Assembly (NCBI GenBank): GCA_002163135.1
Contig: MAAN01000012.1
Span: 1 to 64,000, forward strand
DNA length: 64,000 nucleotides
Direction of reading: 5' to 3'
DNA from: Alphaproteobacteria bacterium 46_93_T64
Lineage (GTDB): Bacteria > Pseudomonadota > Alphaproteobacteria > Sneathiellales > Sneathiellaceae
The translations under genes and the position numbers were made by a program. The notes beneath the pieces were generated by a model. That model saw only the letters and a program-made list of their open reading frames with translations. It searched no databases and was not told the DNA's origin. Every line of letters starts with the position of its first letter. The first letter of the stretch is position 1. Shown here piece after piece: positions 17,944-48,185 of the stretch.

Positions 17944-18016
17944 TTTTTCTCCTTTTCACACCCACCGTGTGTATAAGTTATGCCAGCCAATTAGCTGGCC
18001 GTTTATGTGATGTAAA

Positions 18017-18205
18017 AGGGCAGGTCTCCTGACTCGCGCATTATCGCCAGTGTCCGCCTTCCCGGATTAAATCCAGTGGCAAGATGGACATGACTAACGC
18101 TCACAGTTGCGGGGGCAGTCCCGGATCAGATTTATAAATCCTACCGTGTTCCCTATTATTTCTACAGATGTTCGTCTGCGGAAACCCTTGAACGGGGGCA
18201 GTATC
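18017..18205 (-). promoter_or_regulatory. Cobalamin riboswitch
   Basis: Read on the minus strand, this leader has the conserved blocks of the cobalamin aptamer in order: AGGGAACACGGT, GGGACTGCCCCCGCAACTGTGA, GCCACTGG, GGGAAGGC and the B12 box GAGTCAGGAGACCTGCC. A six-bp stem-loop, GCCAGC and GCTGGC, follows at 17982-17999 before the ribosome-binding site. It may be part of the expression platform. The switch should repress the CbiM-like gene when adenosylcobalamin or another cobalamin is plentiful. Confidence 0.96.
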
Positions 18206-25417: not shown

Positions 25418-26596
25418 TTGCAGGTTTTTAAAAAATCAAATAAAGGCGCGGTATCGCTTTCCAACTCTTTTGAGGGGATAGCGTCTTACGCCAGCGAACA
25501 ACAAGCCATCATTGCAGAACACTGCAATGATGCATTGCATATGTTGTATGCGGATAAGCTTGCGGAAAAAGCCTCCTTATTTCTGAGCAAATTTTCTGGC
25601 GATTGCCTATACGCTGTTAAGGCAAATCCTCATCCGTCCCTCTTGAAATATCTGTGGAAGATGGGGGTTCGGAAATTCGAAATGGCCTCCCTCCGTGAGA
25701 TAGAATTTATCTCGGAGTTGTTTCCAGGGGCAGAAATGTATTTCATGCATCCGGTGAAAAGCCGACAGGCAATCCGCTTTGCGTTTGAACATGGGGTCCG
25801 TGCTTTCGCCTATGACAGTTTGGACGAGCTTCGGAAAATTGAGGAAGAAACTAACTTTTCAAAAGATTTGAATCTGTTTTTGAGAATTTGTGTAGACCAG
25901 TCTTCGTCGGCCCATCCCTTAAGTGGAAAGTTTGGCGCTAGTTTTCAGGAAGCTCCGCTACTGTTGCAGCGGGCGCAGCAGTCCTCGCAAACGCTAGGTG
26001 TCACATTCCATGTCGGGTCGCAGTGCCTTGAGCCGAAAGCTTATGTAACCGCTATCAAGCAGGTTGCTGAAATGCTCAAGCAAAGCGGATGTCAAATTGA
26101 TGCACTGGATATTGGTGGTGGTTTTCCTGTTTCCTACCCCGGAATGACGCCTCCTCCTTTGGCTGACTATTTTAACAGTATCCATGGTGCGTTGAAAGAC
26201 ACTGGCTTGGATGAATTGCAGTTAATGTGCGAGCCAGGGCGGGCGCTTGTGGCAGAAGCAGGATCCGTTGCTGTTCGTGTTGAGATGCGGAAAGGCCAAA
26301 TGCTGTATTTGAATGACGGCACATATGGGGCATTGTTCGACGCAGGTGTTTCCGGATGGCCGTATCCATTAGAAACTGTCCGTGTAGAGGGGGATGAGCT
26401 TCTTACATCGCTATCTCCGTTCAAATTATATGGGCCGACTTGTGATAGTCTGGATGCGATGGAAGGGCCATTTATGCTGCCTGAGAATATCGCCGAAGGT
26501 GACTGGATCGTATTCCATCATTTGGGAGCATATGGTTATGCGATGCAAACCCGTTTTAATGGATTCTATTCTCAGACGACAGTCGCTATCAATTGA
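25418..26596 (+). CDS. Type III PLP-dependent decarboxylase (ornithine/lysine/DAP decarboxylase family)
   Basis: The 392-residue protein (TTG start with AGGA nine bases upstream) is an alanine-racemase-fold decarboxylase. The PLP lysine is Lys68 in YAVKANP; HVGSQ, DIGGGFP, CEPGRALVAEAG and the active-site YGPTCDSLDAMEG (Cys near residue 341) are all present. The CDSLD motif and chain length fit ornithine- or carboxynorspermidine-type decarboxylases as well as diaminopimelate decarboxylase. A deoxyhypusine synthase-like gene and an agmatinase-like gene follow, so a polyamine role is far more likely than lysine synthesis. Substrate undecided between ornithine, lysine and a carboxy-polyamine. 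Confidence 0.86.
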   Translation: MQVFKKSNKGAVSLSNSFEGIASYASEQQAIIAEHCNDALHMLYADKLAEKASLFLSKFSGDCLYAVKANPHPSLLKYLWKMGVRKFEMASLREIEFISELFPGAEMYFMHPVKSRQAIRFAFEHGVRAFAYDSLDELRKIEEETNFSKDLNLFLRICVDQSSSAHPLSGKFGASFQEAPLLLQRAQQSSQTLGVTFHVGSQCLEPKAYVTAIKQVAEMLKQSGCQIDALDIGGGFPVSYPGMTPPPLADYFNSIHGALKDTGLDELQLMCEPGRALVAEAGSVAVRVEMRKGQMLYLNDGTYGALFDAGVSGWPYPLETVRVEGDELLTSLSPFKLYGPTCDSLDAMEGPFMLPENIAEGDWIVFHHLGAYGYAMQTRFNGFYSQTTVAIN

Positions 26597-26634
26597 TCCA
26601 TTGTTTTAATTGTATATGGGCTTAATCGTGCCCG

Positions 26635-27699
26635 ATGAATGTTGCCTTGGAAATTGTAATGTCCGAAAAAATAACTCCATCTGAAAAATCTGAACTGCTT
26701 TCAAAAGTAGTTGAGCATATTGATATCAAATCCTTCGATGCGCGGCCGATAATTGATGCCATGGACAGAATGTCTTTCACTTCGAGAGATCTTGCGCGTG
26801 CGACCAAAATTTTCAATATGGCCGTCGAAGATCCCGAATGTGCTGTCATTCTGACCTTAGCGGGATCAACCTCCGCCGGCGGATGCATGGATGTCTATCG
26901 AGATCTTGTCGAGGCCGGTATGGTGGATGCTGTCGTATCCACAGGCGCTTCCATCGTGGATATGGATTTCTTCGAGGCGCTGGGGTTTAAGCACTATCAA
27001 GGCGATGCTTTCGCTGATGATGGAAAGCTCCGAGAGCTTTATATTGATCGTATATATGATACATATATTGATGAAGAAGAGCTGCAATCGTGCGATGAAG
27101 CGATAAAAGTCATCGCAGACAGTCTTGAGAAGCGGCCCTATTCATCTCGTGAATTTATATACGAAATGGGGGGCTGGCTTAAGAAAAATTCTGTGAAGAA
27201 AAACTCGCTTATCGAAACCTGTTTCGATCATGATGTGCCTATATTCGTACCGGCATTTTCGGATTGTTCTGCAGGATTTGGCCTTGTGAAGCATCAGGTG
27301 GAAAATCCGAACCAGTATTTGAGTATTGATAGCGTTGCCGATTTTCGGGAGCTCACAGACATTAAGATCGCTGCCGGTAGAACTGGCCTATTGATGATCG
27401 GCGGCGGTGTTCCAAAGAATTTCGTGCAAGATACGGTCGTTTGTGCTGAAATTTTAGGTGTTGAAGCTGAAATGCACAAATATGCTGTTCAAATTACAGT
27501 CGCAGATGTTCGCGATGGTGCTTGTTCCTCTTCTACATTGAAGGAAGCCTCAAGCTGGGGCAAAGTAGATACAGCTTGGGAGCAAATGGTTTTTGCCGAG
27601 GCAACATCCGTTGTGCCTCTTTTGGCGTCTGCAGCCTATCATGGCGGAGCATGGAAAAATCGTCCTCGACGAAAATTTGGTAAGCTGTTTCAAAAATAG
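26635..27699 (+). CDS. speY: Deoxyhypusine synthase-like protein (probable homospermidine synthase type)
   Basis: The 354-residue protein has the NAD-binding and active-site pattern of deoxyhypusine synthase: LTLAGSTSAGGCMDVYRDLVEAGMVDAVVSTGASIVDMDFFEALG, and the catalytic lysine in EASSWGKVDT (Lys310). Bacteria lack eIF5A, the eukaryotic substrate. A cyanobacterial homologue (speY) was shown to be needed for homospermidine formation by transfer of the aminobutyl group of a polyamine. It lies between a decarboxylase and an agmatinase-like gene, 38 and 17 bases away, so a polyamine product is expected. ATG 26659, preceded by GGAA, is an alternative start. Confidence 0.88.
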   Translation: MNVALEIVMSEKITPSEKSELLSKVVEHIDIKSFDARPIIDAMDRMSFTSRDLARATKIFNMAVEDPECAVILTLAGSTSAGGCMDVYRDLVEAGMVDAVVSTGASIVDMDFFEALGFKHYQGDAFADDGKLRELYIDRIYDTYIDEEELQSCDEAIKVIADSLEKRPYSSREFIYEMGGWLKKNSVKKNSLIETCFDHDVPIFVPAFSDCSAGFGLVKHQVENPNQYLSIDSVADFRELTDIKIAAGRTGLLMIGGGVPKNFVQDTVVCAEILGVEAEMHKYAVQITVADVRDGACSSSTLKEASSWGKVDTAWEQMVFAEATSVVPLLASAAYHGGAWKNRPRRKFGKLFQK

Positions 27700-27716
27700 A
27701 AGAGATTATCTAGATC

Positions 27717-28616
27717 ATGGAAATTGACATTCTGCCTTCTGAAGAAGGCTTCCTTGGTTTGCCCAAAGAAGATGCCGTCAGCTATAAAGATGCCAAGGCC
27801 GTTGTCATACCTTGCGGCCTTGATGCATCGGTTAGCTACGGCGGAGGAGCAGGGAAGGGGCCAGCCGCAATGCTTGTGGCCAGCCATCAGGTCGAGCTGT
27901 TTGATGAAGTGTTCTGGTGTGAAGCTTTTCGCGAGTATGGGGTTGTAACCGCGCGCCCTGAAAATATTGAAGGCCTTGAAATACCGACGGTACTAGAAGG
28001 ACTTGCCGCTAAAACGACGGCGATCCTGAATGCTGGAAAATTCCCTTTGGTCTTTGGAGGGGAGCATTCTATTACCCCGGGGGCAATTCGCCCATTCCTA
28101 GAGAAATACCCTGATCTGATCGTTCTTCATTTTGACGCACATGCTGATTTACGTGATGGTTACGAGGGAGAACATTTCTCCCATGCTGCTGCAATCAGAA
28201 GAGTTCTCGATCATCCGACATTGCCCATCGTCTCCGTCGGTATTCGAAATATCTCTGCTGAGGAAATTCCGTTTCTGGACGCGAACAAACACCGTATTAC
28301 AATTCATTGGGGCAAAGATCGCAAACACTGGGATATTGAGGAGATCGTCGCGCCGCTTAAAGGGAGGCCGGTATATCTGACTTTTGATCTGGATGGCTTT
28401 GATAGCTCTTTGATGCCGGCAACAGGTACACCTGAGCCCGGGGGGTTTTTCTGGGAAGACGCCATCGATATTATAGAAGCGGCGAGTAAAAATAGCAGAA
28501 TCGTTGGCGCTGACATAAACGAGCTTGCCCCTATTGAAGGGTTTCATGCTCCGGATTTTCTTGCGGCCAAGCTCGCTTACAAAATTCTTAATTACTCTTT
28601 GATTTCAAGGGAATAG
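27717..28616 (+). CDS. speB: Agmatinase-like ureohydrolase
   Basis: A 299-residue arginase/agmatinase fold enzyme. Manganese ligands are visible in GGEHSIT, HFDAHADLRDGYEG and DLDGFDSS. The TGTPEPGGF and DINELAPIEG blocks match agmatinases. The usual reaction is agmatine to putrescine and urea, but members of this family also act on aminopropyl- or carboxy-aminopropyl-agmatine in alternative spermidine routes. It is the third gene of the decarboxylase/DHS-like/ureohydrolase operon, 17 bases after the DHS-like gene. Whether its substrate is agmatine itself cannot be read from the sequence. Confidence 0.92.
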   Translation: MEIDILPSEEGFLGLPKEDAVSYKDAKAVVIPCGLDASVSYGGGAGKGPAAMLVASHQVELFDEVFWCEAFREYGVVTARPENIEGLEIPTVLEGLAAKTTAILNAGKFPLVFGGEHSITPGAIRPFLEKYPDLIVLHFDAHADLRDGYEGEHFSHAAAIRRVLDHPTLPIVSVGIRNISAEEIPFLDANKHRITIHWGKDRKHWDIEEIVAPLKGRPVYLTFDLDGFDSSLMPATGTPEPGGFFWEDAIDIIEAASKNSRIVGADINELAPIEGFHAPDFLAAKLAYKILNYSLISRE

Positions 28617-28718: not shown

Positions 28719-30821
28719 ATGAAAAATGGGGTAAAAAAGATGACGCATACGGACTCAGAAAAATATGAAGTAGGCCTTTCCAGCAACATTATCTCGACCG
28801 AAGACCCGCTTTTAAAGGGGTGGCCCAGACTAATCAGATTACTGATTTGTCTTAATGTCGTGGGGCTCATGGGAATTTGGATTGGGAATGCCGATGCCGC
28901 AGCACGTGGTGCTGAGTTTCTACTCGTCCCAATAGAGAAAACCGAAGGTCTAGATCCCACGCCGGTTCTCGCATTTATTACGACCACAAAAATCGAAACC
29001 GTTGTAACAGGTCATATCGTTCGAAGTCGCGTTATACAGACGTTTGAAAACCCAACGGCTTATTGGATGGAAGGAAAGTACTCCTTTCCGTTACCAGACG
29101 GTGCCGCGGTCGATCAGATGATTTTGAAAGTTGGGGACAGGCGGATTGTTTCCGAAATTCAGGAAAAGCAGAGAGCGAAACGAATATATGAAGAAGCTGC
29201 CGCAGCTGGAAAAGTAAGTGCGTTGCTAGACCAGTATCGTCCAAACGTCTTTTCGACGAGGGTCGCAAATATTGAGCCTGGCAGTAGTGTTTCGGTTGAG
29301 ATTTCATTCCAAATGCTTGCCGAACAAAATGACGCCAGTTTCTCCTGGATTATGCCGCAGACCATTACGCCCCGTTACACACCTACCGCGAGCCGTGAAA
29401 ACTTGACCGGTGAAATTCAGTCTGAAACGTATCAGGATACGTTAGCCCCGGTTTTAACGATGTCGGAATTTAGCGTGCTTTTTAGACAAGGCGATCAGAT
29501 TTCAATTCTCGAAAGTCCAAGCCATACCCTTGTAAGCGACAAACTGGAAAATGGAGATATCCGTGTTTCTTTGAAAGACGGAACGGTCCCCGCGAACCGG
29601 GATTTCATTTTGAAGTGGAAATTTGAACAAGGGGCTGTGGCTAGAGCTCTCCTGTTTGAAGAAATACAAGAAGAGGGAAACTATATGCTTGGAATACTTT
29701 TACCCCCAAGCGAAAATATAGAGGTAGCCTATGTGCCGCGAGATATTACATTTATTTTGGATATCTCAGGTTCAATGCAGGGCGAGGCAATCACTCAGGG
29801 AAAAGAAGCACTAATTGCTGCAGTGGAAAATTTGCGTGCGACAGATCGTTTCGAGATTATGGCCTTCAACGACAATTATTATCAGCTATTTGGCAATAGC
29901 CGTTCGGCTACCCCCACAAATGTAAGATTGGCTAAGCAGTACGTTTATGATTTGCAGGCCGAACGTGGAACAGAGATGTTTCCAGCGCTTAAGCGTGCAC
30001 TTCAGCTAGCACAGACAGATAAAATGGGACGGCAAATTGTTTTCCTTACTGATGGAGCAGTCAGTAATGAAGAACAAATGTTCGAACTTGTTGATCGTAA
30101 ATTGAAGGATGCTCGTTTGTTTACGGTAGGACTTGGGCAAGCGCCCAACAGCTGGTTTATGAGGAAAGCTGCTGAATTTGGGCGGGGTATTCACGTGCAA
30201 GTTGACAATATCAACAACGCGAAATTTCAGTTGGATAAACTTTTTGAAGATATGTCGCGACCAACACTTCAGAAAATTCAAATGGATTTAGGAAAAAATG
30301 CGGATACATACCCGAGACTGATCCCGGATCTATTCGGACAACGCCCTCTCGTCTTTTTAAGCCGGCGAAAGGATAATTCTGATATTCCATCGCTAAAGGC
30401 CATCGATGGCGATGGTCAGCTCTTGAGTTTGAATATTGACGTGCAAACGCAATCATCAAACGCCAGTATCTCGAAACTTTGGGCTTCGAAAAAAATTGAG
30501 GGACTAATGGATGCTGCCGCACGCGGAATGGATATCGATATCGTTCGTGCAGGTATTTTGAAGATTGCTCTGACGCACCAAATTATGAGCCCCTACACAA
30601 GCTTTGTTGCCGTGGATAAGACGCCCGTTCGTGTTCAGCAAGATTTTTTGCGTAAAGCCAAATCTGCGTTGAAATCCCCACCAAGTCTCGCATGGAAGAA
30701 AGTACATGCGCCTCAGACAGCGACACAATTGGAAATGTCGCTCTGGATTGGCCTTGGTACATTCTTTCTTTCCGGAATTTTGTTTTTAATATTCTTCAGA
30801 AGGTTCCGAGTGAATGGGTAG
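28719..30821 (+). CDS. Marine proteobacterial sortase target protein (VIT and VWA domains)
   Basis: A 700-residue protein: a hydrophobic leader (about residues 40-65), a VIT domain (about 70-200, with YSFPLPDGAAVDQMILKVGDR and RAKRIYEEA), and a VWA domain with a complete MIDAS start DISGSMQGEA near residue 346. At the C-terminus the sorting signal reads APQTAT, followed by a membrane helix and the basic end FFRRFRVNG. This is the single target paired with class GN sortases. The next gene, the sortase, overlaps it by 8 bases. ATG 28740, after GGGG, is an equally good start. Function unknown; cell-surface display is expected. Confidence 0.93.
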   Translation: MKNGVKKMTHTDSEKYEVGLSSNIISTEDPLLKGWPRLIRLLICLNVVGLMGIWIGNADAAARGAEFLLVPIEKTEGLDPTPVLAFITTTKIETVVTGHIVRSRVIQTFENPTAYWMEGKYSFPLPDGAAVDQMILKVGDRRIVSEIQEKQRAKRIYEEAAAAGKVSALLDQYRPNVFSTRVANIEPGSSVSVEISFQMLAEQNDASFSWIMPQTITPRYTPTASRENLTGEIQSETYQDTLAPVLTMSEFSVLFRQGDQISILESPSHTLVSDKLENGDIRVSLKDGTVPANRDFILKWKFEQGAVARALLFEEIQEEGNYMLGILLPPSENIEVAYVPRDITFILDISGSMQGEAITQGKEALIAAVENLRATDRFEIMAFNDNYYQLFGNSRSATPTNVRLAKQYVYDLQAERGTEMFPALKRALQLAQTDKMGRQIVFLTDGAVSNEEQMFELVDRKLKDARLFTVGLGQAPNSWFMRKAAEFGRGIHVQVDNINNAKFQLDKLFEDMSRPTLQKIQMDLGKNADTYPRLIPDLFGQRPLVFLSRRKDNSDIPSLKAIDGDGQLLSLNIDVQTQSSNASISKLWASKKIEGLMDAAARGMDIDIVRAGILKIALTHQIMSPYTSFVAVDKTPVRVQQDFLRKAKSALKSPPSLAWKKVHAPQTATQLEMSLWIGLGTFFLSGILFLIFFRRFRVNG

Positions 30822-31380
30822 AATTGCCGTTGCATTCTGTATTTTGTTATTGCTAGCAATTGCGTTATGGCAATTGGGACGAGCGGGGTTAATTGCAGCA
30901 AAAGCGTGGGCGGCGCCTGTGTTAATTGAATACGCTTTTGATCGAGTGGAATTGACTAATCAACGACAGTTACCGTGGCCTTGGGCGGATAATTACCCGA
31001 TTGCAAAGATATCTGTTCCACATCTTAAAGAAAACCGCTTCGTTCTGTCTCAAAGCAGCATGAGAAATCTTGCTTTTGGGCCTACTCTGGAAAAACACGG
31101 CGGCAATCGAATTTTTTATGGTCACAGGGATACGCACTTCGAATTTTTAAAAGAACTTAAGATTAAGGATAAAGTAAAGTATGAGGCAGTTGGAAAGGGT
31201 GTAGAGTATTGGCAAGTTCAACATATAGCCGTGGTCGACGCAGATGAAATTTATGTTCCTGGGCCAAATCAAGAATCTGCCATTTTATTTGTCACATGTT
31301 TTCCTTTTGATAGCATAGTACCAGAAACACGGCAGAGGTTTGTCGTATGGCTAGGGCAGGAGAATAAATCTCGTAGTTGA
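30814..31380 (+). CDS. Class GN sortase
   Basis: The 188-residue transpeptidase has an N-terminal membrane anchor (residues 4-30) and a sortase domain. The catalytic set is visible: His104 in FYGHRDTHF, Cys162 in LFVTCFPFD, and an arginine in the ETRQRFVVWL strand. Length and the WPWADNYPIAKISVP opening match the proteobacterial GN class. Its ATG lies inside the last codons of the target gene, so the pair is translationally coupled. The enzyme should cleave the APQTAT motif of the upstream protein and join it to an unknown acceptor. Confidence 0.95.
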   Translation: MGRIAVAFCILLLLAIALWQLGRAGLIAAKAWAAPVLIEYAFDRVELTNQRQLPWPWADNYPIAKISVPHLKENRFVLSQSSMRNLAFGPTLEKHGGNRIFYGHRDTHFEFLKELKIKDKVKYEAVGKGVEYWQVQHIAVVDADEIYVPGPNQESAILFVTCFPFDSIVPETRQRFVVWLGQENKSRS

Positions 31381-47644: not shown

Positions 47645-48025
47645 ACCAGATGGCTGGATGACTGCTGCGTATCCTCGGATGCGGAGAGGAAAGTCCGGGC
47701 TCCACGGAAATACGGTGCCGGTTAATGGCCGGCGGGGGCGACCCTAGGGAAAGTGCCACAGAAAGCAAACCGCCTGATTTATCGGGTAAGGGTGAAAGGG
47801 TGTGGTAAGAGCGCACCGCGCGCCTGGCAACAGGGGCGGCACGGTAAACCCCACCGGGAGCAAAACCAAATAGGAACGGTCGGCGCAGGGCTTTGCTGCT
47901 GCGCAAGTAGGTTTTCCGGACTACCGTTCGGGTTGGTTGCATGAGGTGCTTGGCAACAGGTACCCTAGATGAATGGTCATCCATCGAGAAATCGAGGACA
48001 AAACCCGGCTTACAGGCCATCTGGT
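47645..48025 (+). ncRNA. rnpB: RNase P RNA, bacterial class A
   Basis: The 381-nt RNA begins and ends with a P1 helix (CCAGATGGC at 47646-47654 pairing with GCCATCTGG at 48016-48024). It contains the conserved core: GAGGAAAGTCCGGGCTCC near the 5' part, GGTAAGGGTGAAAGGGTGTGG in the middle, and ATGAATGGTCATCCATC and ACAAAACCCGGCTTA near the 3' end. It follows the amidase gene by 23 bases. A 3' terminator is not obvious. Confidence 0.97.
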
Positions 48026-48185
48026 ATTATGAATTTACAAGTAATCAAGAAATGATGGCTGCAAGTTTCCTAAATATTAGGATCAAATTAGCTTTATTTA
48101 TGTATCTTCTTGCTTGTGTTTCAGAAAATACTGTCTAACAAATACTCATCAGCACACTAATAACCCATCAAATGTCAGCGCCAGT

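Follow-up and report, generated by a model that had tools for sequence, protein, structure and literature searches.

Which polyamine is made by an operon that combines an ornithine decarboxylase (ODC)-like enzyme, a deoxyhypusine synthase (DHS)-like protein and an agmatinase-family ureohydrolase, and from which amino acid does its pathway start? This question is raised by a locus of Alphaproteobacteria bacterium 46_93_T64, a member of the genus Sneathiella with a 4.0 Mb genome that is 99.85% complete. The locus lies in the first 64,000 nucleotides of contig MAAN01000012.1 (assembly GCA_002163135.1), the stretch analysed here and referred to as the window. Its three open reading frames (ORFs) follow each other head to tail on the plus strand with intergenic gaps of 38 and 17 bases, and the Pfam matches of all three products are above cut-off. 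The gene order decarboxylase-DHS-ureohydrolase was found at 20/20 Sneathiella DHS loci (the window locus counted) and also at loci from five further families (f98, f102, f116, f118, and f144) in the class sample described below; the arrangement is therefore not due to chance. The ORFs, the gene families and the kept order bear out the operon that the initial annotation of the window had described.

The product of the operon is likely to be homospermidine, as that annotation had proposed, and the route that we favour with moderate confidence leads there from arginine via putrescine. Along this route, the alanine-racemase-fold (AR-fold), ODC-like decarboxylase would convert arginine to agmatine, which the ureohydrolase would cleave to putrescine and urea. 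The NAD-dependent DHS-like enzyme (SpeY type) would then oxidise one putrescine, hold its butyl part as an imine on K310 and pass this part to a second putrescine, so that homospermidine would be formed and ammonia released. Putrescine oxidation, imine formation on a lysine and transfer belong to the chemistry of DHS enzymes. The same putrescine would feed a speDE pair located elsewhere in the genome, leading to spermidine.

Substrate of the decarboxylase

Together with DHS genes, 103 decarboxylases were found, of which 100 were aligned (three without a stretch longer than 300 aa were dropped); three of these 100 linked rows are repeats (L101-L103 duplicate L008, L018, and L014), as are three of the 46 operon-agmatinase loci. 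A quick tree with SH-aLRT support was built from 97 of 143 rows after removal of near-copies by hand. In this tree the DHS-linked decarboxylases formed one clade of 64 rows, the window enzyme and 63 others (SH-aLRT 99), whereas 30 DHS-unlinked alphaproteobacterial homologues, which we infer to be ODCs, formed a separate clade (support 95). Loci named Pelagibacteraceae or Pelagibacterales fell inside the linked clade (L131, L150, L157, and L164 on the tree). The window decarboxylase is approximately 40% identical to four Pelagibacterales members and 27.5-33.2% identical to the unlinked homologues. Pelagibacter and Fonsibacter “ODCs” from such clusters were reported to use arginine, whereas activity on ornithine or lysine was not detected (PNAS 2023, PMC9992855). 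The comparison made here is with the Pelagibacterales loci of our sample rather than with the two assayed proteins.

The window decarboxylase possesses the pyridoxal phosphate (PLP) lysine K68 and the CDSLD motif (at 342), both of which the initial annotation had pointed out. K68 is invariant in all rows, linked (100/100) and unlinked (40/40). Position 308 separates the two groups completely, with D in 100/100 linked and E in 40/40 unlinked rows. Position 312, which by alignment to 2plj occupies the place of Asp-332 in the Trypanosoma brucei ODC, is acidic in 0/100 linked versus 39/40 unlinked rows, and the window enzyme has a serine (S312) where an AR-fold ODC is expected to carry an acidic residue. 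A Glu stands at this place in 37/40 unlinked enzymes and also in the chlorovirus arginine decarboxylase (PMC2217671), so that the Asp-332 place is a mark of the clade and not of the substrate; residue marks were therefore rejected as proof of substrate. An RNA leader was likewise rejected as a mark of control by ornithine: the speF leader was present at only 2 of 20 unlinked loci searched (out of 40), which is too weak, and it was not found in the window. Among NCBIfam models, no cut-off was passed by the window decarboxylase (best model LysA, 154.8 bits versus 297.9 required).

The source genome encodes two AR-fold decarboxylases, the window enzyme and LysA, whose gene adjoins argH (read from the ORF, not from a family search). 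Searches of this genome for AAT-fold decarboxylases (PF01276; AAT, aspartate aminotransferase) and for pyruvoyl arginine decarboxylase (PF01862) gave no match. The searches thus revealed no basic-amino-acid decarboxylase in the source genome other than the window enzyme. Agmatine deiminase (PF04371) was not found there either.

The company kept by DHS genes was assessed in 67 DHS genomes, hand-picked from those behind 118 DHS loci, in which deiminase (PF04371) and arginase-family (PF00491) genes were looked up. An agmatinase gene was located beside DHS in 15 of them; four of the 15 also had a deiminase, and in two of the 15 (L138 and L163) the linked decarboxylase was not at that locus. A deiminase was present in 46 of the other 52 genomes. 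In 32 of the 67, some of which are incomplete, the deiminase was present and no arginase-family gene was found. All four Sphingomonas genomes looked up (L154, L155, L166, and L179) had DHS, the linked decarboxylase and the deiminase, and in three of the four no arginase-family gene was found. In a class sample, evenly drawn, DHS was present in 26/385 genomes, two of which (G325 and G241) carry another DHS type. Here the deiminase occurred in 9/9 DHS genomes without operon agmatinase versus 104/359 DHS-negative genomes (Fisher p 2e-5, a value that ignores kinship and is hence too small); the count of nine excludes the fragment G242 as well as G325 and G241, and one of the 116 class-sample deiminase genomes scores under the family cut-off. 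For the 48 rows with genome data, the best decarboxylase tree requires at least nine changes of the operon agmatinase, and L131, which has an agmatinase, forms a sister pair with the deiminase locus L176 (support 98).

This pattern is as predicted if an arginine decarboxylase supplies agmatine. The window decarboxylase shares a clade with the Pelagibacterales enzymes and is clustered with DHS and an enzyme that consumes agmatine, as a DHS-linked arginine decarboxylase should be, and it very probably acts on arginine. Agmatine would thus be made inside the operon and a second source would be needless. The supply of putrescine from ornithine, which had been suggested at first, is not supported.

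From agmatine to homospermidine

The DHS-like gene is present as a single copy in the source genome. Within the order, DHS is carried by 20/25 genomes; four of the five lacking it are 56-86% complete, and the fifth, 99% complete, belongs to another genus of the same family. The SWGK lysine (K310) of the DHS-like protein and the expected residues of the ureohydrolase (H117, D140/H142/D144, and D224/D226, positions from motif places) were found as the initial annotation had reported. We take these ureohydrolase residues to be the metal ligands. The possible lack of speD and speE at which it had hinted proved wrong: the genome encodes one SpeD, adjoining SpeE on another contig, and both are above the NCBIfam cut-offs.

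The published pocket positions of the Thermus enzyme CdmS, S67, E136, D143, F204, L286, E293, and K299 (PMC10981699), correspond to S78, E147, D154, F215, C297, E304, and K310 in the window protein. The offset is a constant 11, and the letters agree at six of the seven positions, the single mismatch being C297 for L286; the comparison rests on the published numbers only, not on the CdmS sequence. This match argues for membership of the same subfamily as CdmS and leaves a route via caldomycin in play. The pocket positions are the same in 46 deiminase, 25 agmatinase and 23 Sneathiella rows, except for one Met for Phe at 215, and K310 is invariant in these 94 rows of the three compared groups as well as in the 22 rows of alignment A1. 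A nearly invariant pocket, while agmatinase and deiminase replace each other, points to putrescine, their shared product, as the DHS substrate; we consider it somewhat more probable that the enzyme acts on putrescine than on agmatine. The pocket residues do not settle the DHS substrate. A search for DHS columns that separate agmatinase from deiminase genomes was also made and the candidates were rejected, since the 12 strongest (62, 15, 20, 11, 131, 17, 219, 235, 306, 276, 8, and 222) are none of the published pocket positions, although columns 306, 219, and 222 are close to a few of these; the search made no correction for kinship.

Homospermidine as the product is consistent with the polyamines reported from SAR11 and Sphingomonas. 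The SAR11 strain HTCC1062 contains homospermidine (PMC8437039), and in three Sphingomonas species other than those whose genomes were looked up it reportedly makes up 85-98% of the polyamines, putrescine or spermidine being minor (PMC12453569).

Several points weigh against the proposed route. Six of seven CdmS pocket residues are shared although CdmS was reported not to use putrescine (PMC10981699). The family NF002699, whose cut-off the window protein exceeds, is named by NCBIfam after the caldomycin reaction. At position 211, which adjoins a pocket residue, Cys is found in 23/23 Sneathiella rows and Ser in 44/46 deiminase and 24/25 other agmatinase rows, so that the site in Sneathiella differs in part from that of its relatives. 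In the decarboxylase tree, 35/94 inner branches are weakly supported. Six of the 52 DHS genomes without operon agmatinase have no deiminase; four of them have another arginase-family gene and two have neither (L106 and L118, both metagenome-assembled genomes). A kinship-controlled pairs test gave the same direction with too few pairs (six on supported branches; median p 0.125). The source genome contains a second arginase-family gene, a 278-aa stretch of which scores 175.9 versus the agmatinase cut-off of 174.3. The SAR11 strain HTCC7211 was reported with spermidine alone, and its authors doubted that DHS is primarily a homospermidine synthase there (PMC8437039). Sneathiella and Sphingomonas may also have a separate homospermidine synthase (HSS). 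A literature search found no polyamine data for Sneathiella. Finally, every enzyme activity of the operon, as well as the action of the ureohydrolase before DHS, is inferred.

The first two of these points favour the alternative that the operon works as in Thermus, where DHS joins two agmatines and homospermidine is reached via caldomycin, free putrescine not being an intermediate. A guanidino-polyamine route had been raised as an alternative by the initial annotation and deserves this place, as it has been published for the Thermus enzymes CdmS and TtSpeBap (PMC10981699), and an operon with all three genes would supply everything that it requires. The ureohydrolase is not a general partner of DHS, given the 32/67 genomes in which a deiminase but no arginase-family gene was detected, and the published pocket positions are alike between the groups. 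Moreover, the NF002699 name does not separate agmatinase from deiminase groups, because the DHS proteins of L154 (Sphingomonas), L145 (Caulobacter) and L088 (from a deiminase operon) pass this model too. We regard the caldomycin route in Sneathiella as possible but rather unlikely. In a wider form of it, the whole alphaproteobacterial DHS clade would make caldomycin from agmatine with no free putrescine on the way to homospermidine, and lineages would differ only in guanidino removal: Sneathiella and Pelagibacter would rely on the operon ureohydrolase for it, Caulobacter and Sphingomonas on agmatine deiminase together with N-carbamoylputrescine amidase, with caldomycin as the substrate. No description of such an action on caldomycin was found in the literature covered, and this form appears distinctly unlikely.

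A true ODC could instead supply the putrescine, with the ureohydrolase salvaging imported agmatine or another guanidino compound and DHS making homospermidine. Among solved structures, those nearest in sequence are indeed lysine/ornithine and ornithine decarboxylases (one of them is 33.8% identical in the segment compared, a little above the values for the unlinked homologues), the CDSLD motif is kept, and an AR-fold ODC is described as the enzyme of most alphaproteobacteria (PMC9992855). The clade shared with Pelagibacterales enzymes apart from the unlinked homologues, the Asp-332 place without an acidic residue in any linked row, the association with agmatine-consuming genes and the failure to find another agmatine source in the genome all speak against an ODC, which we consider very unlikely.

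In the human DHS, spermidine is anchored by D243 and D316 (PMC7226451), which have been paired in print with F204 and L286 of CdmS (PMC10981699). The window protein has F215 and C297 at these places and thus lacks the anchors of a true deoxyhypusine synthase. The D316 place is not decisive, since the PDB chains 7cmc and 8put, each a “probable deoxyhypusine synthase” and presumably archaeal, have Leu there. That the DHS-like protein makes no homospermidine in Sneathiella, and is instead a protein-modifying enzyme or one that exchanges aminobutyl groups with speDE-derived spermidine, is the least probable reading and is highly doubtful: the fold family, the catalytic lysine, a speDE pair able to supply spermidine and the doubts of the SAR11 authors (PMC8437039) are in its favour, whereas the operon with decarboxylase and ureohydrolase at 20/20 loci and the replaced spermidine anchors are against it.

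Features of the window and DHS homologues in other settings

The positions of the operon genes and of the residues discussed above are collected in Table 1.

Table 1. Coordinates in the window of the polyamine operon and of selected codons.
Feature	Coordinates	Strand	Family matches
AR-fold PLP decarboxylase, 392 aa, TTG start	25418..26596	+	PF02784 156 bits, PF00278 44 bits
DHS-like protein, 354 aa, NF002699/PRK02492 family	26635..27699	+	PF01916 (DS) 308 bits; NF002699 579.9 bits (cut-off 500)
Agmatinase-family ureohydrolase, 299 aa	27717..28616	+	PF00491 (Arginase) 197 bits; TIGR01230 (agmatinase) 206.9 bits (cut-off 174.3)
Codon of PLP lysine K68 (YAVKAN), decarboxylase	25619..25621	+	
Specificity-helix stretch D308-S312 (DAGVS), decarboxylase	26339..26353	+	
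Codon of catalytic-type lysine K310 (SWGK), DHS-like protein	27562..27564	+	

Elsewhere in the window, a marine proteobacterial sortase target protein (VIT/VWA, above cut-off) is followed by a GN-type sortase just below cut-off (28719-31380). Two ordinary RNA elements are a cobalamin riboswitch (18002-18204, minus strand) and a bacterial RNase P class A RNA (47646-48028, plus strand).

A genome scan for DHS relatives was limited to the best 80 loci, all nearer relatives than Thermus CdmS. In L089 (4184-7630), an NF002699-type DHS is followed by homologues of carboxynorspermidine synthase (under cut-off) and decarboxylase (just over), and the DHS-linked decarboxylase is not beside DHS. In L100 (4802-9718), the other DHS type, nearest to NF001980 and under its cut-off, is clustered with agmatinase-like and SpeE-like genes and, by eye, with ORFs resembling an AAT-fold decarboxylase and SpeD. 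The DHS proteins of L138 and L163, on contigs titled Bacteroidetes/Bacteroidales, are 69-70% identical to that of the window and are preceded by an agmatinase-like gene, which indicates either gene transfer or mislabelled contigs.

A plasmid scan with DHS gave 16 records, by name of Sphingomonas, Nostoc, Trichormus and haloarchaea. On plasmid A of Trichormus variabilis ATCC 29413 (L224, 5995-7038), an NF002699-type DHS gene (591.8 bits) adjoins rocD and is near iron-transport genes.

A phage scan with DHS gave no records. A viral-contig scan with the DHS alignment revealed homologues of 355 and 363 aa on the phage contigs L182 and L183, which are 46% identical to each other and approximately 29% to the window protein and keep SWGK. 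A further scan with these two proteins as query added L229 and L231, so that four IMG/VR contigs carry DHS homologues: L182/L230 (IMGVR_UViG_3300038451_000392), L183/L227 (IMGVR_UViG_3300014201_000003), L229, and L231. Terminase-like genes are near DHS on L182 and L183, with portal and scaffold genes on L182; L229 has a terminase-like ORF 2.7 kb downstream of DHS (by eye), and L231 was judged by eye only. In an earlier study, BLASTP reportedly found no SpeY homologue in viruses or phages (PNAS 2023, PMC9992855). On contig L181 (IMGVR_UViG_3300006341_000161), an N-terminally truncated Pelagibacter-type decarboxylase gene and the beginning of DHS are preceded by a phage-like ORF (phrog_455); this arrangement is either a chimeric assembly or a real insertion.

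Comparison with known systems

The Pelagibacter cluster (PMC9992855), DHS homologues as homospermidine synthases (PMC9992855, PMC10407285) and the caldomycin route (PMC10981699) are already known. For Caulobacter, Sphingomonas or Sneathiella, no paper proposing the arginine reading was found, a weak negative since most subscription papers were outside the search. If this reading is true, arginine is the substrate of the ODC look-alikes encoded next to DHS in Sneathiella, Caulobacterales, Sphingomonadales and Pelagibacterales, and pathway maps that start such bacteria from ornithine are wrong. It also raises the question whether the NCBIfam name “caldomycin synthase” fits the alphaproteobacterial DHS proteins, given the 32/67 genomes in which no ureohydrolase was detected.

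The cluster of Candidatus Pelagibacter ubique, with an ODC-like arginine decarboxylase, DHS/SpeY and arginase/agmatinase (PMC9992855), contains the same three gene families as the window, and the window's gene order is found at ten Pelagibacteraceae loci (L131, L150, L157, L164, L168, L169, L174, L175, L177, and L180). The Sneathiella operon differs in the modest identity of its decarboxylase to the Pelagibacterales members noted above. Moreover, a multidomain fusion SpeE has been reported in SAR11 (PMC8437039), whereas speD and speE are separate adjacent genes in the window genome.

SpeY (NF001980/PRK00770, “homospermidine biosynthesis protein”) belongs to the same DHS family and yields homospermidine (PMC9992855, PMC10407285). 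The window protein reaches only 185.6 bits with NF001980 (cut-off 450), and the proteins of L099/L100, which come nearest to that model without reaching its cut-off, are approximately 25% identical to the window protein. The tested cyanobacterial SpeY is presumably of the NF001980 type.

Compared with Thermus, the window protein has C297 for L286, and many of its relatives pair DHS with agmatine deiminase instead. Thermus thermophilus likewise uses a DHS homologue and a ureohydrolase, CdmS and TtSpeBap, to reach homospermidine, and like the window genome it also has SpeD and SpeE enzymes (PMC10981699).

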